From a candidate division WOR-3 bacterium (GTDB taxonomy: Bacteria; Hydrothermota; Tepidihabitantia; SM23-42; JAOAFX01), in NCBI GenBank assembly GCA_039802005.1, contig JBDRVV010000016.1:1-48318 (forward strand): a stretch of DNA of 48,318 bases, read 5' to 3'. A model generated the notes under the pieces. It was given only the letters and a program-made list of their open reading frames with translations. It searched no databases and had not been told where the DNA came from. The position numbers and the translations under genes were made by a program. Below, in pieces: positions 33,916 to 44,978 of this stretch (its first letter is position 1; each line of letters opens with the position of its first letter).

Positions 33916-36060
33916 CTACGAGAGGAGATGATTTTTCAAATCCTCTGTTTCCCTACTCAGTTCCAGACCTAATTCATCTTTTATGATATTTTTAATTCTT
34001 TCATATTGTTTTAATACCAGGTCCTTTCTACCTATCTGTGCATAACATTCCATCAGAACCCGATGGCATTCCTCTGATAGTTCATCTTTTGATAATGCCA
34101 ACTTGCAGGTGCTGATAGCACTTTCAATATTATTATATTTGAGGTTTATGCGTGAGGCGGTAATGGCTGCACTAATGAAAATCTCGCGTGTCTGCTCACG
34201 CACCATTATAATATCTACTAAATCAATTCCCGACAAAAAGTCACCCTTATACAAGTCAAAGATTTTTTGGTAGAATTTTAATGCCTCTTTATTTTTTCCT
34301 GATATTTCTAATTGCCGTGCCTGGCGATAAAATTTCAAAAAATCTTCTAAGTCGGTGTGGATACTATCCAACCTCATCCGGTAAGAGTGATTTTCATATT
34401 CTATTATTTGTGATTTTTTACCTTCTTTCAAATTCGGTTCTAACCTTTTGCGAAGTTCGTTTATTGCGACCTGTAGGTTCATTGTTGCCAGCGCCTGTGG
34501 TTTTTCGGGCCAGAGCGCAAGTAGAAGTGTATCACTGGGGACAAATTTATCTTCGAATATGAGTTCCCCACCCCTGTTTATTATTTGTTTTGTAAAGAGT
34601 AGGCTGAATACCAATCGTGCCGAATTCCGGCGCCATTTTTCTATTTTTACACCATTTACAAATATTTCAAATCCACCGAAGGTAAGAAATTTTATCTCTG
34701 GGAGTTTTGATCCAATTGCTGTAAGCGGTTTATATTTTAAATTCAGTTTTTTGATATAAAGGCGCGGACTCTGGGGATTCAATTTTTCAATAAGATGCCA
34801 GTAATTATTAAAAATTGCAGGGTCAAATAAAAAATCATAGCCGTACTTCTGACAGATATTAAGTGCCTTTGAAAATGTCTTAACGGCAGATGCCTTTTTT
34901 TCTTGATTTAATAAATCATCTGTAAGTTCTAAATAACCAGTCGCGGTATGATATGCCATTTTCATTTTTTTATAATAGTTGAGCGATTTTTTCAATAATT
35001 TGAGACCCTCTGTGTATTTGCCGGTTGCAAAGTATAACTGTGCCATATTGAATTCAGCACCGGCCCTTTCAATTGGTGTATCTGCTGGGCAAGATTCCAA
35101 TGCCTTTAGCGCATATTTTTTGCTTAAATCAATCTTATTTTGTAAGCGATATAATCTGCTTAACGCAATACAACAGTTGGTCAAAAACGATGAAGTCTGG
35201 GCATCATCGGTCTTTTTCATTGCCTGAAGAAGGGTATCTTCTGACTGTTTAAATTTTTTCTGGAACATTAATATCTCACCTAAATTAACCATTGCCGGAC
35301 CAATTGCTAAGCCCAGACCAATCTTCATAGCCTCGGTGATTGCCGATGTGGAGAGCGATTCAGCACGGTCAAGTTCTCTCATCAAAAGATACAATCCAGC
35401 AAGATTCAAAGCCGCAAGACAATAACTCCTTCTGTTATCTGAATTTTCATAGAACCTGAGTACTTCTTCTTTTTCTTTTCTTGCTTTTTGAAAATTTCCC
35501 AATTTCACATCTATTGCTGAAGCATTGGCAAGCGTGCGCATTTCCCCTTCTTTATCACCAATTGCAATATAAATATCCATTACTTTTTTATAAAATTGTA
35601 TGGCTTCTTTGTATTTTAAAAGTCTCCAGTAACTCCCTGCTATTGTAGATAATAGTCCTGCTCTTCCTCGAAAGTCGTCTGGGGGAAGAAGTTTCAAGCC
35701 AAGTTTTGAAACTTCAATTGCCTTTTTATTTTCTCCCATATCCTGATAGATATAAGATAGATAACGATATGCCGCAGTGAGCCCTGATTTATCACCCTGT
35801 TTTTTCAAGATTGGAATTGCGGTTTGAATCTTTCTTTCGGCACTGAGCAGTTCGCCACTTAAATAATCGGTGTTGGCACGAACGAGTAAGAGTTTTGGAT
35901 TCTTTGCAGACTCATCTTCAGGGATTGCGTTAAGGAATTCTTTTAATATATTGATTTTTCCCTGCTGGAGCAAATCACGGCTGTGCGCTACGACCAATCG
36001 GGCTGCAGAAGCAAAGTCTTGTTTTGTTATTGCTTCTTTAATCTGGTCTTCTACCGACAT
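33916..36060 (-). CDS. TPR-BTAD winged-helix transcriptional regulator (SARP/MalT-like)
   Basis: The protein is about 714 aa. The start is set at ATG 36060, ~8 nt after AGAGG; GTG 36069 is also possible. Residues ~1-430 are MalT-type tetratricopeptide repeats (YRYLSYIYQDMGENKKAIE, YWRLLKYKEAIQFY and later copies). Residues ~445-560 form an OmpR/SARP-type winged helix (FLTFGGFEIFVNGVKI, WRRNSARLVFSLLF, LLLALWPEKP, VAINELRKRLEP). Residues ~565-714 are the BTAD all-helical partner (YKGDFLSGIDL, CHRVLMECYAQIGR, YERIKNIIKDELGLELS). Classic SARPs have the DNA-binding part first; here it comes after the sensor repeats. No ATPase domain is present. It overlaps the OPT transporter gene by 23 nt, so the pair is translationally coupled. 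It may be a peptide- or stress-responsive activator (inference). Confidence 0.88.
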   Translation of the reverse strand: MSVEDQIKEAITKQDFASAARLVVAHSRDLLQQGKINILKEFLNAIPEDESAKNPKLLLVRANTDYLSGELLSAERKIQTAIPILKKQGDKSGLTAAYRYLSYIYQDMGENKKAIEVSKLGLKLLPPDDFRGRAGLLSTIAGSYWRLLKYKEAIQFYKKVMDIYIAIGDKEGEMRTLANASAIDVKLGNFQKARKEKEEVLRFYENSDNRRSYCLAALNLAGLYLLMRELDRAESLSTSAITEAMKIGLGLAIGPAMVNLGEILMFQKKFKQSEDTLLQAMKKTDDAQTSSFLTNCCIALSRLYRLQNKIDLSKKYALKALESCPADTPIERAGAEFNMAQLYFATGKYTEGLKLLKKSLNYYKKMKMAYHTATGYLELTDDLLNQEKKASAVKTFSKALNICQKYGYDFLFDPAIFNNYWHLIEKLNPQSPRLYIKKLNLKYKPLTAIGSKLPEIKFLTFGGFEIFVNGVKIEKWRRNSARLVFSLLFTKQIINRGGELIFEDKFVPSDTLLLALWPEKPQALATMNLQVAINELRKRLEPNLKEGKKSQIIEYENHSYRMRLDSIHTDLEDFLKFYRQARQLEISGKNKEALKFYQKIFDLYKGDFLSGIDLVDIIMVREQTREIFISAAITASRINLKYNNIESAISTCKLALSKDELSEECHRVLMECYAQIGRKDLVLKQYERIKNIIKDELGLELSRETEDLKNHLLS

Positions 36061-37957
36061 TTCTTTCACCTCTACTATGCAAATGGAAGAAAAGGACTAA
36101 TGCAAGAATAAAAAAGATAATTATAGAACCGATATTAGCATAATTGCCAAGCCAGGCACCCACTGGTAAACTCTCATAGATTTTATTGAGGGCAGGGATT
36201 CCAATCAAAAATGCAATTAGCACACCAACGAGGGCGTCACCGGCAACAAGACCTGAGGAGAATAGAATGCCTTTCTCTTCTTTGAATTTTAAAATTTCAC
36301 CCGTAGATGTTTTCTGTATAAAATAGTAGATTGACGCACCAGCCATAATCGGCATTGATAGTGATAATGGAAGATAGAGTCCGATTGCAAATGGTAATGC
36401 AGATATTCCCAGCAATTCCACAGCAATTGCAAGAATTGCTCCCAGACCAACAAAGGTCCAGGGTAAGGTTCCACTGAGCACACCCTTTACTACAAATGAC
36501 ATGAGCGTTGCCTGGGGTGCGGGAAGTTTATCAGAACCTATCACCATTGTTTTGTGTAAAAGCATCAATACACCACCCATAAATAATGCGGGGATAATAA
36601 CACCGATAAATTCAGCAATCTGCTGGTAGAAAGGAGTTGAGCCAACTAAAAATCCAGTCTTTAAATCCTGGGATGCATCACCAGCCATACATATTGCAAT
36701 ACAAACGACACTACCAATGGACATTGCACCGATCATTCCCGGCATTCCCCGCCAGCCAAAAGCGACAAATATCAAACAGGTTATAAGCAGTGTAGCAATT
36801 GTCATCCCTGAGACCGGGCTTGATGAACTACCAACGATTCCCACAATCCTTGATGCAACAGTAACAAAGAAGAAACTGAATATAACAACGATCAACATTC
36901 CAATAATGCCAATATGGGTCTGGGGAATGAGTAACATTAAGATTGCAATTATTATTGCACCAGCAATTACCACACTCATTGGGATATCCTGCTCGGTCCT
37001 TGGGGCATTCTTATCGGGTAAAAATTTAAATCCTTTGAACATTTCAACGAATCCGAGTTTGAAGCATTTAAATACGATCGGACAGACGCGTAGAAGGCTT
37101 ATCAATCCACCGACCGCAACCGCACCCGCACCGATATATCTAATATAATAACTGCGAATTTCCGAAGGAGAGAGGAGTGCAACGATATTATCCGCGGGAG
37201 GAATTGGTGTATTTAAATTTGCACCAATAAACGCAATCAAAGGGCTTATCACGAGATAACCAAGGATTGCACCGGAGAGCATATAGGAAGCGATTCTTGG
37301 ACCAATGATAAATCCAACACCTAATAAAGCAGGTGTTAAGTCAATGCCGATTTCCATTCCTTTTACACCGCTCACCAGCCAGGTTGCAGTCTCTTTCCAC
37401 AATTTCAGACCACTCATCAAAAATTTGTATAAAGCACCGATTCCCACACCTGAAAATACAATCTTTGCCTTTGCACCCCCCTTATCACCTGCCTTTAAGA
37501 TCTCAGCACAGGCGGTTCCCTCGGGATAGGGAAGGGTCTTATGTTCCTGAACGATTAAATACCTTCTTAAAGGAATCATAAATAAAATGCCCAAAAATCC
37601 ACCCAAAAAAGAAATCAAAATAATTGTCCAGGCATCAGGAAAGTAATCCCACATAAAGAATGCGGGGATTGTAAAGATAATCCCTGCTGCCAATGATTCA
37701 CCAGAAGAGCCAATGGTCTGGGAAATATTATTTTCTAATATTGTTCCTTTTCTTAGTGCACCCTTCAAAATTGCCATTGATATTACTGCAGCGGGGATTG
37801 ATGCGGATACCGTCATTCCAACTTTTAATCCGAGATATGCGTTCGCCAGACCAAAGACAATCGCCAGGATTGAACCGAGAACAACTGCCCTTACAGTGAA
37901 TTCACCAATTCTCTCATCCGATTTTATATAAGGTTGAAAATCTGAATTTGATTTCAT
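36038..37957 (-). CDS. OPT-family oligopeptide/metal-chelate transporter
   Basis: The 639-aa inner-membrane protein has about 14-16 hydrophobic segments. The N-terminus EFTVRAVVLGSILAIVFG followed by ANAYLGLKVGMTVSASIPAA is the classic OPT-family signature, and YPEGTACAEIL (~150) is a second one. The length matches prokaryotic OPT proteins (TIGR00733 type). The family imports oligopeptides or metal-siderophore conjugates by proton symport; the substrate cannot be read from sequence. The SD AAGGAG lies 5 nt before ATG. The C-terminus (HSRGERNVGRRPD) overlaps the TPR/BTAD regulator gene. It is divergent to the giant kinase-activator gene across 126 nt, so shared regulation is possible. Confidence 0.92.
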   Translation of the reverse strand: MKSNSDFQPYIKSDERIGEFTVRAVVLGSILAIVFGLANAYLGLKVGMTVSASIPAAVISMAILKGALRKGTILENNISQTIGSSGESLAAGIIFTIPAFFMWDYFPDAWTIILISFLGGFLGILFMIPLRRYLIVQEHKTLPYPEGTACAEILKAGDKGGAKAKIVFSGVGIGALYKFLMSGLKLWKETATWLVSGVKGMEIGIDLTPALLGVGFIIGPRIASYMLSGAILGYLVISPLIAFIGANLNTPIPPADNIVALLSPSEIRSYYIRYIGAGAVAVGGLISLLRVCPIVFKCFKLGFVEMFKGFKFLPDKNAPRTEQDIPMSVVIAGAIIIAILMLLIPQTHIGIIGMLIVVIFSFFFVTVASRIVGIVGSSSSPVSGMTIATLLITCLIFVAFGWRGMPGMIGAMSIGSVVCIAICMAGDASQDLKTGFLVGSTPFYQQIAEFIGVIIPALFMGGVLMLLHKTMVIGSDKLPAPQATLMSFVVKGVLSGTLPWTFVGLGAILAIAVELLGISALPFAIGLYLPLSLSMPIMAGASIYYFIQKTSTGEILKFKEEKGILFSSGLVAGDALVGVLIAFLIGIPALNKIYESLPVGAWLGNYANIGSIIIFFILALVLFFHLHSRGERNVGRRPD

Positions 37958-38083: not shown

Positions 38084-41000
38084 ATGCAGAAAATAGGCAG
38101 GTATAGAATCATTGAAGAGATTGAAAAAGGAAATTATACATCAGTCTACAGGGTTAGTGATAGTAAAACCGAACTTGTCTTAAAGATCGCGCGTGAGAGT
38201 TATCCTGAATTTAATGAGATAATCCGCAGAGAGTTCCAGATTCTTTCTCAATTCAGACATCCCAATATTGTCCCTGTATATGAATATAATATTACCGAAG
38301 ATAACAGGGCATTTTTTACTCTTGAATATATGCGGGGAAAACCGATAACCCATTCTTTCAATAAATTTTCTGAGGAATTTATTGAGTCAATAATACAGAT
38401 TATCAATGCACTTGGTGCATTCCATAATAAAGGTTTTATACATGGAGATATTAAACCAGAACACATAATTTATAATGAAAAAGAAAAAAAAGCCGTTCTC
38501 ATTGATTTTGGATTTGCCGGCATTTCAACCCATCAGATTAAAGAGTATGGCACCATTGGTTATGTCGCACCCGAAGTTATAAAAGGGATTGGTATGGACC
38601 AGCGTAGTGATTTATACTCACTCGGTGTTATTATCTATGAGATATTATCAGGGTCAGGTATAAAACAGCCGATTAAACCAATAAAAAATATCCCGGAAGT
38701 TTTAAATAATACAATCCTTCGACTCTTATCGGAAGAACCCGCCCTGAGGCCGACTGCATTAGAATTATTTGAGGTATTCAGCAGTCTTGTCCCTGAAAAA
38801 AAATTTGTATTTCCTAATTATAAAGTTCAATTACCACCAACTGGATTTGTTGAAATCCCTGAGATTATGGAAAGATTATTGAAATTGAAGGGTGATACGG
38901 TGGTTCTCAATGGCGAGGTTGGTTCAGGAAAGACGAGGTTTTTAAGAGAGTTGCGTTATAAATACCTTTTCAAAGGCTATGATGTCTTCTCTTTCAATGG
39001 CAGGGAACATGGTTATTTCCACGAGTTTGTCTGTGATTCCATTAATTTTAAAGATTTAGATTTTTCTAAGAAAGAAGACCAGTTTCAGGTATATGATGAG
39101 ATTACTGAGCGATTGATTGAATATGCAAAAGATAGAAATGTCGTTTTACTCGTTGATGACCTTGATAAATTGAATGATTATGAACTCGGGCTGTTCAGAT
39201 TCATCGGGCATAGCCTTGAGAATACAAATATTACGATGATTGGCACAGCAAATTATGACCAAAGGGTAAAGGACTTAAATTTCTTTGAACTTAACTTAAA
39301 GCCATTTTCTATTGATGAGATGAGAACATTGATTAATAAGACATTTTTTGAGATTGAAACAAAAGATGGGACTGAAATTTCTCATTTTATAGAATGGTTT
39401 CGTAAGTATACCGGCGGCAATCCATTATTCATTGTTGAAACCTTGAAGGCGCTCCATAGTCAGAATATTTTAGATTACCAGATAAATAAATGGCAGATTG
39501 ATATGAGTGCACTAAAAGAATTTAGAATTTCTGAAGATGTTGAAGGAATATTATCAATGAAACTACAGGGTTTGAATGAGGACGAAATCAATATCTTGAA
39601 GGTTCTTTGTATTGCTGATTATCCATTAGAATCTTCTATTTTCTGGTCAATCTTCCCTATGTTGAATAATACCAGTATTGAGGTTTTGAAATTATTGGGG
39701 CTTATTAAAGACGAATATATACATGGTAAGAGATTTTTCGTTCTTACAAATCAGATAGTAAAAAATCTGGTTGAAAAACAAATGGCAAAAGAAGATACTG
39801 TCCTGATTGTTAAAAGAATTGCTCAGACGATAGAAGAAATAGAATCTTACGAAATTTACTACCCACTGCTTGGCAGGCTATATAAGCAAATCGGTGAAAC
39901 GAAAATGGCGTTTCACTATTTTCGTCTTTCCGCAGAGAGCGCTGAAAAGATAAATGATAGAAATAATGCTATAGAATATTATACAAATGCCCTTGAATGT
40001 GCAGGAAGTGAAAAATCACAAGAATACGCCTCAATTCTCATAAAATTAGGTAATCTATATCTCCTTTCCGGGGATAACCATAAGGCGATTGAACACTTCA
40101 ATAAGTCCGTTAGATATATTCAGTTTAGATGTGATGCATTATTCGGTATAGGAAAGGCATATTCAAATCTGGGAGACTATGATAAGGCGATTGAATATCT
40201 AAGAAAAGCGCTTGAAGGAAATGTAGAAGAAAAGAGGCAGGTAGAGGTCTTAAACCGCCTTGCCTATTGTTATATAAGTTTAAGGGATTTTGATGAAGGG
40301 GGAAGGATAATCAATGAAGCGATAAAGATATCCCGAAGGATAAATGACCCTGGACTTGAGGCAGAGTCATTATACTACGATGCTACACGCTGGTGGTTTA
40401 CGGGTGAGTATGGAAAAGGCGAGAATGTATGTAAAGAATTATTAGAATTCTGCGAAAAGAACAGTCTAAACAAGCAATATGCCTATGTAGCAAATCTATT
40501 GAGTTCTTTTTATCTCCAGACCGGTAATATTGAAAATGGAATGAGATATATTGAGATTGCAATAAAAGGATTTGAGCATATTAAAGACTTTAATGCCCTT
40601 TTGTCAGGGATGATTAACAAGGCAATATTATTTCGCAATAACGGTGATATAAATAATGCCAGGAAGATTTTTGAACATACCCTGAATAGTGCCTTGAAGA
40701 TTGGTAATAAGATCCATCAGCATATATGTTTTACACAGCTTGCTGGTATTCTTGAAGAAACGAGCAAATTTGAAAAGGCACTTAAATTCTACAAAAATGC
40801 CCTGGGAATTGAACCGGATTCTGAATATGCAAATTATATGCTTGCAATGATTTATTACAAGTTGTCAGAGATTGATAAGGCGAAGTCAATACTTGAGCAA
40901 AGATCAGCAAGGAAAGAAGGCGTCTTATATCTTATAGGGCTCGGTCTGGTATATTCTGTGTTGGGAAGCATTGAAAAGGCAAGGGAGAATATAGAAAAGG

Positions 41001-42913
41001 GTATTGATATACTTAAACAGGAAGGTCTGGAGGTCTCCATTCAACAGGAGGCATATCTCAAATCAAGCCAGTTCTATTATGAGATAGAAGATTTTGAACG
41101 CTCATTGAATCTTGCAGAGAGTTTAAAGAAGATTGCGATAAAGGATAGCAGGGAGTATATAATGGCAGATGCCCTGATAAAGATAAATAAGTTCAGAATG
41201 AAATTGATAGATAGATTAGATGTAGATTCAGAACTAAAATATCTGAAAAATAAGGGATTCTTATACGACTATGGATATATTAAAAAATTAAAGATTGAAT
41301 CCCTTATTGATAAGGGCCTTGAGCGAGAGAAGATAAAAGAGATTGCAGAAGAACTTGAGTCAGTGGAACAGGTATTTAAAACAATCGGTGCAGAACTTGA
41401 ATTGAACAGGGTTCAGAAACTGAAATTATATATCTACCCGGATATCATCCGTGATTATTCACGGAGGATAATATCGGTCCAATACCTTGATACATTCTCT
41501 AAACTCGCTGAACTTATAAATTCTAATCTCGGTGATGAAGATTTTGTGTTAAATGTCCTTGACCTGGTGATAGAGGCTACTGGTGCAGAGAGGGGAGCGA
41601 TATTTATTAAAGGTGAAAAGGGGATGGATTTTGTTGCCGGCAGGAATATAGATAAAAAGACGATAAAGGATGCGGGTGAACTTTCAAAGTCCACAATTGA
41701 GGAGATTGATAAAAATAGAATAGTCTTTATCCCGGATGCGGTTGATGACCCTAAATTCAATATAAAGAAGAGTGTTTTATTGAACCAAATCCGTTCAATA
41801 CTCTGTATCCCCCTTGTGGTTAGTGATAATATTGTCGGTGCTATATACCTTGACTCAAGGATGGCAGGCTCAATATTCAATGAACAGGACCGGGATTTTT
41901 TAAACACAATATCAAAGATACTTGCCTCGGTCATTGAAAAGTCCATTATATTTAAAAATTTAAAGAGCGAAAATATTTTATTAAAGGCAAATGTGATTGG
42001 CGAGATTGGTGCTGGTTATCTAATAAGTAGATCAAGAAAAATGAAAAAGATTTATGAAGATATAGAGGCGATTGCCCAGTCAGATGCGCCGGTTTTAATC
42101 ACCGGTGAGACCGGAACCGGAAAGGGTATGCTTGCCCGATTGATTCATTTGAAAAGCAAACGCAGGGATAAAAAATTTATCTCCATAAATTGTGGTGCCA
42201 TACCCGAGACCCTGCTTGAATCAGAACTATTCGGGCATAAAAAAGGTGCATTCACAGGTGCCTTAAACGACAAAAAAGGTCTATTAGAAGAGGGCGAAGG
42301 CGGGACAATATTCCTTGATGAGATTTCAAATACATCTGCGGGATTCCAGGCGAAGATGCTTGAGGCAGTAGAGGATAAGATAATCCGCAGGCTTGGTGAG
42401 ACCACAACGAGAAAGATAGATGTAAGATTCATTCTTGCTTCAAATAAAGAACTTGAGATAGAGGTTGAAGAAGGTAGGTTCAGGCAGGATTTATACTTCA
42501 GGATAAATGTCTTCAGGATAAGGGTGCCACCACTAAGGGAGCGAACTATTGATATTCCGGAACTTGCGAAATTCTTTCTTGAAAAATATTCTAAACAAAT
42601 GAATAAAAATATTTTAGGCTTTGGAACTGGAGTGATTGAACGATTGAAAGAATACCACTGGACTGGGAATGTAAGGGAATTGATGAATGTGATTGAAAGG
42701 GCGGTGACTTTGTGTAAAGGCAATATAATCACGATAAATGACATAGGTCTGGGGAAAGAGAAGAAAGAGATAGTTTCCTTAAAAGATATAAAAAAAGAGG
42801 TGATAATTGAGGCATTGAATGCAACAAACTATGATAAGAAAAAGACTGCAAAATTGTTAGGTATTGCGAGGGCGACACTTTATAACTATTTAAATAAGTA
42901 CGATATTAAATAG
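38084..42913 (+). CDS. Giant regulator: Ser/Thr kinase - ATPase - TPR - GAF - sigma-54 activator - Fis HTH
   Basis: The 1609-aa cytoplasmic protein has six parts. (1) Kinase, ~7-260: Lys34 in LVLKIA, HGDIKPEHI (~120, a non-RD kinase), DFGFAG (~140), GYVAPEV, but a degenerate glycine loop. (2) STAND-like ATPase, ~270-560: Walker A GEVGSGKT, Walker B VVLLVDDLD. (3) TPR array, ~600-1110. (4) GAF domain, ~1134-1290, with ATGAERGAIFI. (5) Sigma-54 AAA+ domain, ~1304-1540: Walker A GETGTGKG, GAFTGA (~1388), GGTIFLDEI and arginine-finger region FRQDLYFRIN. (6) C-terminal Fis-type HTH (KKKTAKLLGIARATLYNYL). Parts 1-4 match the AfsK/PknB-AAA-TPR plan of eukaryote-like histidine/serine kinases. Here the output is an enhancer-binding activator on the same chain, so sensing and sigma-54 activation need no separate response regulator (inference). 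Confidence 0.92.
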   Translation: MQKIGRYRIIEEIEKGNYTSVYRVSDSKTELVLKIARESYPEFNEIIRREFQILSQFRHPNIVPVYEYNITEDNRAFFTLEYMRGKPITHSFNKFSEEFIESIIQIINALGAFHNKGFIHGDIKPEHIIYNEKEKKAVLIDFGFAGISTHQIKEYGTIGYVAPEVIKGIGMDQRSDLYSLGVIIYEILSGSGIKQPIKPIKNIPEVLNNTILRLLSEEPALRPTALELFEVFSSLVPEKKFVFPNYKVQLPPTGFVEIPEIMERLLKLKGDTVVLNGEVGSGKTRFLRELRYKYLFKGYDVFSFNGREHGYFHEFVCDSINFKDLDFSKKEDQFQVYDEITERLIEYAKDRNVVLLVDDLDKLNDYELGLFRFIGHSLENTNITMIGTANYDQRVKDLNFFELNLKPFSIDEMRTLINKTFFEIETKDGTEISHFIEWFRKYTGGNPLFIVETLKALHSQNILDYQINKWQIDMSALKEFRISEDVEGILSMKLQGLNEDEINILKVLCIADYPLESSIFWSIFPMLNNTSIEVLKLLGLIKDEYIHGKRFFVLTNQIVKNLVEKQMAKEDTVLIVKRIAQTIEEIESYEIYYPLLGRLYKQIGETKMAFHYFRLSAESAEKINDRNNAIEYYTNALECAGSEKSQEYASILIKLGNLYLLSGDNHKAIEHFNKSVRYIQFRCDALFGIGKAYSNLGDYDKAIEYLRKALEGNVEEKRQVEVLNRLAYCYISLRDFDEGGRIINEAIKISRRINDPGLEAESLYYDATRWWFTGEYGKGENVCKELLEFCEKNSLNKQYAYVANLLSSFYLQTGNIENGMRYIEIAIKGFEHIKDFNALLSGMINKAILFRNNGDINNARKIFEHTLNSALKIGNKIHQHICFTQLAGILEETSKFEKALKFYKNALGIEPDSEYANYMLAMIYYKLSEIDKAKSILEQRSARKEGVLYLIGLGLVYSVLGSIEKARENIEKGIDILKQEGLEVSIQQEAYLKSSQFYYEIEDFERSLNLAESLKKIAIKDSREYIMADALIKINKFRMKLIDRLDVDSELKYLKNKGFLYDYGYIKKLKIESLIDKGLEREKIKEIAEELESVEQVFKTIGAELELNRVQKLKLYIYPDIIRDYSRRIISVQYLDTFSKLAELINSNLGDEDFVLNVLDLVIEATGAERGAIFIKGEKGMDFVAGRNIDKKTIKDAGELSKSTIEEIDKNRIVFIPDAVDDPKFNIKKSVLLNQIRSILCIPLVVSDNIVGAIYLDSRMAGSIFNEQDRDFLNTISKILASVIEKSIIFKNLKSENILLKANVIGEIGAGYLISRSRKMKKIYEDIEAIAQSDAPVLITGETGTGKGMLARLIHLKSKRRDKKFISINCGAIPETLLESELFGHKKGAFTGALNDKKGLLEEGEGGTIFLDEISNTSAGFQAKMLEAVEDKIIRRLGETTTRKIDVRFILASNKELEIEVEEGRFRQDLYFRINVFRIRVPPLRERTIDIPELAKFFLEKYSKQMNKNILGFGTGVIERLKEYHWTGNVRELMNVIERAVTLCKGNIITINDIGLGKEKKEIVSLKDIKKEVIIEALNATNYDKKKTAKLLGIARATLYNYLNKYDIK

Positions 42914-42976: not shown

Positions 42977-42995
42977 GTGTCCAAAATTTTGACAC
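42977..42995. promoter_or_regulatory. Enhancer-like site 1 (upstream activating sequence)
   Basis: GTGTCCAAAATTTTGACAC is an inverted repeat with GTGTC/GACAC arms. It matches site 2 at 16 of 19 positions and lies ~165 nt upstream of the predicted sigma-54 transcription start, a normal distance for bacterial enhancer-binding proteins with Fis-type HTHs. Confidence 0.72.
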
Positions 42996-43046: not shown

Positions 43047-43065
43047 ATGTCCAAATTTTAGACAC
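43047..43065. promoter_or_regulatory. Enhancer-like site 2 (upstream activating sequence)
   Basis: ATGTCCAAATTTTAGACAC has TGTC/GACA arms like site 1, whose start it follows by 70 nt. It lies ~95 nt upstream of the predicted start site. Paired sites of this kind allow cooperative binding and hexamer assembly. Confidence 0.72.
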
Positions 43066-43092
43066 ATTTATTAATGACCGAGTCCATTTTCT

Positions 43093-43106
43093 CTTGAAAT
43101 TTCAAG
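43093..43106. promoter_or_regulatory. 14-bp perfect palindrome between enhancers and sigma-54 promoter
   Basis: CTTGAAATTTCAAG is self-complementary. It sits between the enhancer-like sites and the -24 box. It could bind another dimeric regulator or simply be a bend; there is no further support. Confidence 0.4.
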
Positions 43107-43116
43107 ACTTTGTTCG

Positions 43117-43131
43117 GGCACGAAATTTGCT
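43117..43131 (+). promoter_or_regulatory. Sigma-54 (-24/-12) promoter
   Basis: GGCACG, AAAT, TTGCT: all positions of the GGCACG-N4-TTGCW core match, with exactly 10 nt between the GG and GC dinucleotides. The predicted start (~43142) gives a 15-nt leader with an AAAAGGAG SD for the peptide at 43157. It lies 204 nt after the end of the sigma-54 activator gene. Confidence 0.87.
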
Positions 43132-43156: not shown

Positions 43157-43345
43157 ATGAAGAGGGCAATAACATATATCATAATCCTTCTGGTGCTCGG
43201 TGGAATTTTTGGTCTCAGTATGCACCAGAATAGTAATCCTGTTATTGGGTCAGGTCTTGATATAATAACCCCGGCAGTGGCGTTTGCAGATTCGGATACG
43301 GTGAAGGCACCTGCTCCACCGCCACCGCCACCGCCGATTAATTAA
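43157..43345 (+). CDS. Small exported or membrane-anchored peptide with a polyproline tail
   Basis: The 62-aa protein has an AAAAGGAG SD 7 nt before ATG. Residues 4-21 are hydrophobic after a basic MKR start (signal peptide or anchor). An AFA tripeptide at ~42-44 could be a signal-peptidase site, although it is far from the hydrophobic core. The mature form would then be the 18-residue DSDTVKAPAPPPPPPPIN. Seven consecutive prolines would need EF-P for translation. No cysteines and no known bacteriocin or RiPP leader motif are seen. It is the first gene after the sigma-54 promoter and therefore the likely main target of the giant activator. I do not recognise a family; a signal, a surface ligand or a precursor peptide are all possible. 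Confidence 0.75.
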   Translation: MKRAITYIIILLVLGGIFGLSMHQNSNPVIGSGLDIITPAVAFADSDTVKAPAPPPPPPPIN

Positions 43346-43365: not shown

Positions 43366-43581
43366 ATGGCGCCTGTCCATTTATATGAGATAAAGATGAT
43401 TGATGGTTCAAAATACCGTGGGGAGATTGCATACCGGGATGATAAGATGATTGTATTGAAACTGGCAAATTATGATCGTTCCGAATTTGGCTCAAAGATA
43501 AAATTATTCTATAATGGGATAATGAGCATCCAGGAACTCGGTTGGTGCAAGATAATGCTGAAGCCGGTCCGGGTAGATTGA
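43366..43581 (+). CDS. Small Sm/Hfq-like beta-barrel protein (hypothetical)
   Basis: The 71-aa protein has an AAAGGGGTG SD and follows the polyproline peptide by 20 nt, so it belongs to the same sigma-54 transcript. The pattern of a five-strand barrel is visible: VHLYEIKMIDG, YRGEIAYRDDKMIVLKL, then a short loop and IKLFYNGIMSIQEL. This resembles Hfq/LSm proteins in the placing of the Gly, the Asp in strand 2 and the final hydrophobic strand (compare KHAIST in Hfq). No signal peptide is present. RNA binding is inference only; an SH3-like protein-binding fold is equally possible. Confidence 0.7.
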   Translation: MAPVHLYEIKMIDGSKYRGEIAYRDDKMIVLKLANYDRSEFGSKIKLFYNGIMSIQELGWCKIMLKPVRVD

Positions 43582-43591
43582 TAATGTTTTC

Positions 43592-43620
43592 AAGGGGACT
43601 GCCCTTTCGGGCAGTCCCTT
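43592..43620 (+). terminator. Strong hairpin at the end of the sigma-54 operon (terminator-like)
   Basis: AAGGGGACTGCCC, loop TTTC, GGGCAGTCCCTT: ~11 pairs. No T-run follows on either strand, so it may be a partial terminator or 3'-end stabiliser between the Sm-like gene and the HD-GYP gene rather than a full stop. Confidence 0.55.
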
Positions 43621-43637
43621 AAACAATAAAAATTTAT

Positions 43638-44978
43638 ATGAATGAGATAATAACCATATCGGCGCTATTTTTTCAAATAACTGCAATAGGTATTTCTTTA
43701 TATTATTATAAAAGGATGCCGAATCCTGCATGGATATTGGTTTCAATCGCCTTATTCGTTATGGCAATAAGAGGGTTATTAAACCTGTTCGGATTCAGAC
43801 TTGAGGCACTTGAGGTTTTGATATTAATTATTAGCATATTAATTTTTTTAGGATTTATCTTTGCAAAAAAAATCTTCAAAGAAGTTGATAAAATACTTAA
43901 GTATTTAAAAGGTTTATGGGAGATTGACCGGGTTATAATTTCGGGACTTACACCAAAGAGCATAATCAATGGTGTAAAAAAGGTGATTGCAGACCTATTT
44001 AATTGCGATGCCCTTGGCATTTATATTTTGCATAAACCTGATATGAAATTAATCCCTTATGCAAATCAAAACTTGAATGAAGAATTTCATAAAGAAATGA
44101 TTGAAAATAAAGACGGTCTTCTCTGGAAGGTTGTTAAAGAGAAAAAGAGTATTTTTATTGAAAAATCCAATAAAGACTTTGATTTTCCTAATGTTTTAAA
44201 AAAGGAGAATTGTTCAACCTTCATCGGTGTGCCTCTAATATTGAAGGGAGATCTATTAGGTGCTATAATTTTGCTATCAAATAATAAAACTTATCAGACG
44301 GGCGAGGTAAAAAAATATATTGAGGGTATAAGTCGTCAACTGGTAATAGCAATTGATAAAATACAGACGATAGAAAAGATTAAAGAGATAAATATTGAAT
44401 CAGTATTTGCCCTGGTGCAGGCAATTGAGATGCGCGACCCTTATACCAAAGGACACTCATTGCAGGTTTCAAATCTTGCAGTTGAATTGGCAAAAAAATT
44501 TGAATGTTCTGAGAGAGAATTAGAACTTATAAAATTCGCTGGTTTATTACACGATGTTGGAAAGATTGCGGTTCCAGAAAATATTTTGAATAAGCCATCA
44601 AGTTTGAGTGAATATGAATGGATAATTATGAAAAAGCACCCTATATTTAGTTATGAAATAATTAAACCTATAAAAGGACTGCTGGAGATTGAGAAATGGA
44701 TATTATACCACCATGAAAAATGGGATGGAAGCGGTTATCCAGAAGGATTGAAGGGCAGTGAAATTCCATTCTTTTCACGGATCCTTGCGGTTTGTGATAC
44801 TTATTCAGCAATGCTGAGCAACCGTCCATATAGAAAAAAGCTCACTGACGAGGAGGCAAGGGAAGAAATAAAAAGGTATGCGGGAAAACAATTTGACCCG
44901 GAAATAGTTGAGGTATTTTTAACCCTTCCCAAAGAGTCTTTGATAAAACTTATTGAAAAAACAGTTGACCCTTCATAG
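43638..44978 (+). CDS. Membrane GAF-HD-GYP protein (putative cyclic-dinucleotide phosphodiesterase)
   Basis: The 446-aa protein has three predicted TM helices in ~1-80. A GAF domain follows at ~95-245 (FNCDALGIYIL, GVPLILKGDLLGAIILLS). The HD-GYP domain at ~255-425 has RDPYTKGHSLQVS, LLHDVGKIAVPE, a KKHP motif, HHEKWDGSGYPEGLKG and DTYSAML. The metal-binding HD, HH and GYP residues are intact, so c-di-GMP (or cGAMP) hydrolysis at the inner membrane is plausible. No SD precedes the ATG and only a hairpin separates it from the Sm-like gene, so expression may come from readthrough of the sigma-54 transcript. It shares GAF input with the giant regulator. Confidence 0.92.
   Translation: MNEIITISALFFQITAIGISLYYYKRMPNPAWILVSIALFVMAIRGLLNLFGFRLEALEVLILIISILIFLGFIFAKKIFKEVDKILKYLKGLWEIDRVIISGLTPKSIINGVKKVIADLFNCDALGIYILHKPDMKLIPYANQNLNEEFHKEMIENKDGLLWKVVKEKKSIFIEKSNKDFDFPNVLKKENCSTFIGVPLILKGDLLGAIILLSNNKTYQTGEVKKYIEGISRQLVIAIDKIQTIEKIKEINIESVFALVQAIEMRDPYTKGHSLQVSNLAVELAKKFECSERELELIKFAGLLHDVGKIAVPENILNKPSSLSEYEWIIMKKHPIFSYEIIKPIKGLLEIEKWILYHHEKWDGSGYPEGLKGSEIPFFSRILAVCDTYSAMLSNRPYRKKLTDEEAREEIKRYAGKQFDPEIVEVFLTLPKESLIKLIEKTVDPS

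Follow-up and report, generated by a model that had tools for sequence, protein, structure and literature searches.

A conserved proline-rich micropeptide gene beside a giant kinase-TPR-sigma-54 activator in candidate division WOR-3: a possible peptide-based control system

The locus and its features

Here, we describe a micropeptide gene and its surroundings in a window (the whole stretch of DNA that was analysed, 48,318 nucleotides) from a candidate division WOR-3 bacterium. The ORF at 43157-43345 on the forward strand encodes a product of 62 aa, MKRAITYIIILLVLGGIFGLSMHQNSNPVIGSGLDIITPAVAFADSDTVKAPAPPPPPPPIN. Its ATG at 43157, with GGAG as ribosome-binding site (RBS), lies 243 nt past the stop codon of a giant activator gene, and the gene for a 71-aa protein, p71, begins 20 nt past its own stop codon. 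The features of the region are the following.

38084..42913, + strand: activator, 1609 aa, Ser/Thr kinase - AAA - TPR - GAF - sigma-54 AAA+ - Fis-type HTH (Pfam)
42978..42994, no strand: putative enhancer palindrome 1, TGTCCAAAATTTTGACA, a perfect match, of which the genome has two, with conserved spacing
43048..43064, no strand: putative enhancer palindrome 2, TGTCCAAATTTTAGACA, the other perfect genome match, 70 bp from palindrome 1
43092..43107, no strand: third conserved palindrome, TCTTGAAATTTCAAGA, with equivalents at other module promoters even though the enhancers differ
43116..43131, + strand: sigma-54 promoter element, GGGCACGAAATTTGCT, with equivalents TGGCAY..TTGC in relatives
43157..43345, + strand: micropeptide gene, 62 aa; signal-like region, residues 1-44; proline-rich tail, residues 45-62 (43289-43342)
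43366..43581, + strand: p71, 71 aa, Hfq/Sm-fold protein by predicted fold, second gene of the apparent transcript, conserved behind the micropeptide
43593..43620, + strand: terminator-like hairpin 3' of p71, without a clear T run (from sequence)
43638..44978, + strand: GAF-HD-GYP protein, the usual neighbour of the module (Pfam, synteny)

A preliminary description of this DNA had given the ORF 62 residues, a hydrophobic N-terminus, an AFA site and a seven-proline tail, and reading the sequence bears this out. The N-terminus reaches a Kyte-Doolittle mean of 2.93 in its best 12-residue window, and the AFA|D site is followed by the tail DSDTVKAPAPPPPPPPIN, with seven consecutive prolines and IN as the last residues. 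In a structure model, residues 2-21 form a helix, a further helix is short, and the tail is extended. The export-type N-terminus proposed earlier is likewise supported by hydropathy and by an AxA|D site that is kept in homologues, and export may be its role, although a signal peptide would be expected to have a shorter spacer between helix and AxA site. A search of Pfam and NCBIfam with the window's micropeptide gave no match to a known family.

The activator matches PF00158 (1.8e-66) and PF02954 (4.6e-10), together with TPR_8 (1.1e-26) and TPR_MalT (1.8e-9), and a hydropathy scan found no transmembrane segment in it. Its full-length relatives are about 1600-1770 aa long. Among the 80 contig loci kept (matches listed), the closest activator match is CP070680.1, from candidate division WOR-3, and a kinase-sigma-54 fusion occurs only in a WOR-3 record. 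The window's own genome carries a paralogous kinase-sigma-54 activator, 52% identical (L115, contig C3 121841-126652). This paralogue drives an HD-GYP gene and no micropeptide, with a private enhancer pair whose sites are 71 bp apart.

Conservation and selection

A protein search found about 15 homologues of the micropeptide in same-genus, same-family and same-order genomes (about 14 genomes besides its own), while little was gained beyond the order when 147 genomes of the phylum were searched with a profile. In an alignment of 15 homologues, four positions do not vary (M1, D45, P58 and P59), and alanine precedes the predicted cut in nearly all (AFA, AYA, CFA or MYA; AHA in genome G018, via a shifted alignment). 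Against the nearest relative, dN is 0.16 and dS 1.35, and dN/dS values of about 0.07-0.24 in five other homologue pairs indicate purifying selection. Since the prolines are encoded by a mixture of CCA and CCG that changes synonymously among relatives, the proline run is not a DNA repeat artefact. Conservation, dN/dS and synonymous codon changes rule out a chance ORF; on comparative sequence evidence, the 62-aa ORF is real and conserved. Conservation near homologous activators and codon-level selection, whose absence had been named beforehand as refuting, were both found.

Order-level relatives usually share one layout: activator, two palindromes, sigma-54 promoter, micropeptide, p71 and mostly then the GAF-HD-GYP gene, with activator orthologues 5' of the micropeptide in most of them. 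G004 and G008 are exceptions: there, the best-matching activator is encoded at a different place in the genome from the micropeptide. Secondary micropeptide copies (L043 and L044) are without a clear sigma-54 site of their own. In three close relatives (G015, G017 and G023), the N-terminal half of the micropeptide is nearly invariant and changes fall mostly in the tail, so the composition of the tail rather than its sequence may matter.

Promoter and enhancers

The sigma-54 element ends 25 nt 5' of the micropeptide ATG, and RpoN is encoded in the same genome. Homologues adjoining an activator each have a sigma-54 promoter and two palindromic enhancers. Automatic location succeeded for both enhancers in 12 loci, and in these their centres are 70-71 bp apart. 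From the downstream enhancer to the promoter, the distance is about 60 or about 71 bp, values one helical turn apart. From genus to genus, enhancer sequence and the recognition helix of the adjoining activator change in step: RRTIER, RRTIQR or RKTIQR goes with TGTCGCA-type arms, and RTSIYRY or RKSIYRY with GTGTCA/GTATCA-type arms. Such switching at fixed spacing provides a natural data set on DNA reading by Fis-type helices.

The window's own enhancer motif has two perfect sites genome-wide, both at the micropeptide promoter, and a search of the same genome for a wider regulon by enhancer pattern gave nothing above control level except this local pair. Because the perfect motif is confined to the locus in its own genome, control of the micropeptide looks dedicated. 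The pattern GCGACANNNTGTCGC occurs exactly twice in each of G008, G016 and G019, always at the micropeptide promoter; twice in the window's own genome, at the paralogous activator on contig C3; once in G024; and once at the micropeptide promoter of G003, where one further match lies elsewhere. In G015 and G017, the other of the two enhancer types is also found at the promoter of a second p71 gene. G017 has one further enhancer pair of this type (L287/L288, contig C160 1791-1878), away from the module; a sigma-54-like site and small ORFs lie 3' of it, and one of these ORFs resembles a protein downstream of the micropeptide in L123. The third palindrome lies about 16 bp 5' of the sigma-54 element and has counterparts in L031-L042 and L115-L117.

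The fixed spacing, the co-variation with the recognition helix, the private motif and the presence of RpoN strongly suggest that the activator binds the enhancer pair and, with it, that the adjacent activator drives the micropeptide gene. Its sigma-54 AAA+ domain, its Fis-type HTH and the predicted upstream enhancers at a sigma-54 promoter are those of a sigma-54 enhancer-binding protein. At the level of sequence, the gene anatomy is established: a predicted enhancer pair and sigma-54 promoter of the micropeptide's own, beside a kinase-AAA-TPR-GAF-sigma-54 activator. The preliminary description had proposed sigma-54 control, which the element, its equivalents in relatives and RpoN support, and dedicated control by the giant activator, with which an enhancer pair unique in the genome and co-varying with the recognition helix agrees. 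It had also called the activator 'multi-input', for which the support is its domain list, and had made the micropeptide the first gene under the promoter, which stands; it is not the sole product, as the gene for the Hfq-fold protein p71 follows.

Recurrence across the phylum

A search of relatives for short C-terminal-polyproline ORFs downstream of kinase/sigma-54 activators, which the preliminary description had asked for, was positive. Under a single criterion fixed after a first list had been read (an RBS; a length of 12-135 aa; five or more prolines, PP among them, in the last 22 residues; a start at most 700 nt downstream on the same strand), a proline-rich micro-ORF follows the activator class in 45 of 67 regions in the WOR-3 phylum, a count that includes 11 loci found via the micropeptide and four known before the criterion (30 of 52 without these), several of the 67 loci being closely related and a few activator frames of 580-950 aa being putative members of the kinase class. 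The positive regions span 13 family-level groups, and nearly all of their micro-ORFs are 16-105 aa long. The criterion misses G056 (a 127-aa repeat form), G121 and G013, which are member-like by eye.

Controls gave far fewer positives: 2 of 67 when the opposite strand was scored, none of 10 regions downstream of ordinary GAF-sigma-54 activators, 1.2% of Markov shuffles and 7/201 at other gene ends in WOR-3 loci, where four were true module peptides and one was antisense to one. Some activators of the class are without a proline-rich micro-ORF. Large sigma-54 frames are also present among 14 genomes from outside WOR-3, and none of the seven checked has a proline micro-ORF behind it; seven proteins are a small sample, too few for the module to be called confined to the phylum.

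Forms of the peptide

The proline-rich peptide comes in three forms. A single tail after a signal-like N-terminus is found in this window, G034, G131 and G138. Tandem repeats after a signal-like N-terminus occur in G117 (DGIPHPPKPVPPTQ four times, with small changes), G009 and G012 (GPDAPPPSP four times), G020 (GGIPQPPPSGR twice) and G067 and G069 (DDPLPPPPII twice). Leaderless peptides of 16-21 aa, such as MDGIVPILPPPRPAPPVK, MFGVFVPPPPLPCPPK and MDGYPIPPKPGPLPDPPSQG, occur in two families and in G082, with no visible export signal; that of G082 has two copies of GIPIDMPGSPRPPW. G031 and G033 have PILPPPRPAPPVK in common, with differing codons. At L151 (G120), tandem genes 226 and 314 nt past the activator stop encode nearly identical leaderless peptides, MNDSFPILPQPGPIAPPLGI and MNDSFPILPQPGPIAPPLY.

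These forms bear on what the peptide may do. One possibility, to which we give about one chance in four, is an exported effector, which would serve as a ligand or structural element rich in proline, whether in the periplasm, on the surface or beyond the cell; the activator would have it made on demand and would not sense it. Most members have the signal-like N-terminus that this would need, and close relatives keep the tail prolines while other residues change, as for a polyproline-II element; the leaderless members do not fit, and no surface or secretion partner gene recurs nearby. An antimicrobial or toxin-like proline-rich peptide under stress control is improbable. The peptides are small, mostly secreted-looking, proline-rich and sometimes repeated, but in 19 sampled tails the net charge is -8 to +3, mostly neutral or acidic, unlike cationic proline-rich antimicrobials, and the loci share no recurring gene for immunity or for a dedicated exporter.

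The micropeptide stop is followed, in several families, by a strong terminator hairpin and then by a convergent gene, so the micropeptide is the sole evident protein product there and nothing in cis is left to control. This weighs against a translation-arrest leader, in which the proline run would stall ribosomes near the stop and control the next gene, a reading suggested by the position of that run and by the gene 20 nt downstream in the window. Members in G117, G120, G146 and G082 have PP without PPP, and the tail sequence is not a fixed motif. With some members lacking PPP and others a downstream gene, we regard an arrest leader as the least probable of the readings, and very improbable.

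p71 and neighbouring genes

An AlphaFold2 model of the unannotated protein p71 is a five-stranded barrel (mean pLDDT 76), and Foldseek places Hfq at the top of its matches (TM ~0.63, rmsd 0.8-0.9, best E 3e-3), which makes p71 a predicted Sm-fold barrel. Hfq-related matches with Pfam and NCBIfam profiles stay below cut-off (E ~0.1; 13 bits against a cut-off of 27). Canonical Hfq (PF17209) was not found in 31 relative genomes by a search that does find Hfq in control genomes. An SH3 barrel binding the proline tail was considered for p71 and dropped, since Foldseek favours Hfq. A second p71 in G015, G017 and G023 stands under a sigma-54 promoter and enhancer-like palindromes of its own, with no peptide, and stand-alone p71 relatives lie away from the module in several genomes (L100-L105).

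An Sm-like partner in the window's order is one point in favour of a cytoplasmic or membrane-bound feedback microprotein, which would bind the activator (at its TPR, AAA or kinase part) or the Sm-like protein directly, with no export and re-import. The leaderless forms and the fixed adjacency to the activator agree with it. We nevertheless hold it to be rather unlikely: in most families, the signal-like N-terminus and the conserved AxA|D would, by the positive-inside rule, put the tail outside.

Divergent from the activator, 33916-37957 (-) holds overlapping genes for a BTAD-TPR regulator and an OPT oligopeptide transporter. The OPT gene (36038-37957) was considered as the module's peptide importer and rejected, since relatives do not have it next to the module. 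A conserved protein of 90-99 aa follows the micropeptide in family f4, in the place held by p71 in the window's order. Its positions past the activator stop are as follows.

L139: 519-810
L140: 649-922
L141: 517-808
L146: 475-772

A candidate peptide-signalling loop

We favour, tentatively and at somewhat less than even chances, the reading that the ORF encodes a propeptide within a dedicated signalling loop of TPR regulator and peptide, with a logic like that of RRNPP systems, because a TPR regulator with a secreted, repeated or leaderless propeptide is the RRNPP layout. The activator would drive transcription through the enhancer pair and sigma-54; the N-terminus would carry the peptide through Sec; signal peptidase would cut after AFA; and the tail would be the active part. 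In the least certain step, the tail or a fragment of it would be re-imported and sensed by the activator's cytoplasmic AAA/TPR region, giving autoregulation. Output would run via sigma-54 and, in this order, via the co-expressed Sm-like protein.

Several points speak for this loop: an ORF under purifying selection, a fixed-spacing enhancer pair that tracks the recognition helix and is private to the locus, the excess of micro-ORFs behind this activator class over the controls, tandem-repeat and leaderless single-unit forms (both known for TPR-receptor pheromones), transcripts that code for the micropeptide alone before a terminator, and a cytoplasmic activator with TPR and MalT-type TPR matches. 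Against it stand the tail being the most variable part in close relatives, the long spacer before the AxA site, the lack of a conserved peptide importer next to the module in relatives, a receptor far larger than those of RRNPP systems, and class activators without a peptide, among them the C3 paralogue with its HD-GYP gene.

A wider claim, a little less probable still, is that proline-rich peptides are the cognate signals of giant kinase-TPR-sigma-54 activators throughout the uncultured WOR-3 phylum, with private enhancers and an origin separate from that of Gram-positive RRNPP systems. Our literature searches found no description of such an activator/proline-peptide system and no published work on cell communication in this phylum, and the pairing has the look of a peptide-based control system not described before. 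If the peptides prove to be signals, the phylum gains a testable language, and peptide signalling a new variant; if they are not, they still form a large class of unannotated, tightly regulated microproteins.

Comparison with known systems

SecM is an arrest leader controlling secA. In leaders of this type, as in the module, the N-terminus is signal-like and a proline-rich end lies near the stop codon and the gene that follows; the module peptides differ in having no fixed arrest motif, no universal PPP and often no downstream gene, so that a conserved C-terminal arrest sequence controlling a downstream gene is missing. With Hfq and other Sm-like proteins, p71 shares the predicted five-strand barrel, whereas its model is without the N-terminal helix of Hfq and its scores fall under the family cut-offs.

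Peptide pheromones read by TPR regulators have been described for Gram-positive bacteria. In RRNPP(A) pairs (Rap-Phr, PlcR-PapR, NprR-NprX and Rgg/ComR with SHP/ComS), as here, a cytoplasmic TPR regulator adjoins a propeptide gene of 10-100 aa. Their propeptides, secreted by Sec or, in leaderless forms, by PptAB, mostly have a Sec-type signal, with some leaderless and some of repeated units, a range of forms that resembles the signal-like, leaderless and repeated ones of the module. Tandemly duplicated propeptides are known in RRNPP systems (PMC11343458), whose signature includes a receptor of about 250-500 aa (PMC10075063). The window has the TPR regulator and the adjoining short propeptide-like gene, but the candidate receptor is 1609 aa, and because of this size we do not file the module as RRNPP. 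The module regulators, at 1600-1770 aa against 250-500 aa, carry kinase, AAA, GAF and sigma-54 domains, the peptides are proline-rich and the host is not one of the Bacillota, the likeness being one of gene layout. An uncultured phylum repeats, at the level of its genes, this TPR-regulator/peptide logic with a kinase-sigma-54 fusion and proline-rich peptides.

The module is also comparable to bacterial enhancer-binding proteins that have a local sigma-54 target, with which it shares the AAA+ sigma-54 domain, the Fis-type HTH, paired upstream enhancers and a local promoter. It differs from the usual members in the N-terminal Ser/Thr kinase-AAA-TPR sensor part of its activator and in having a micropeptide as the first product.
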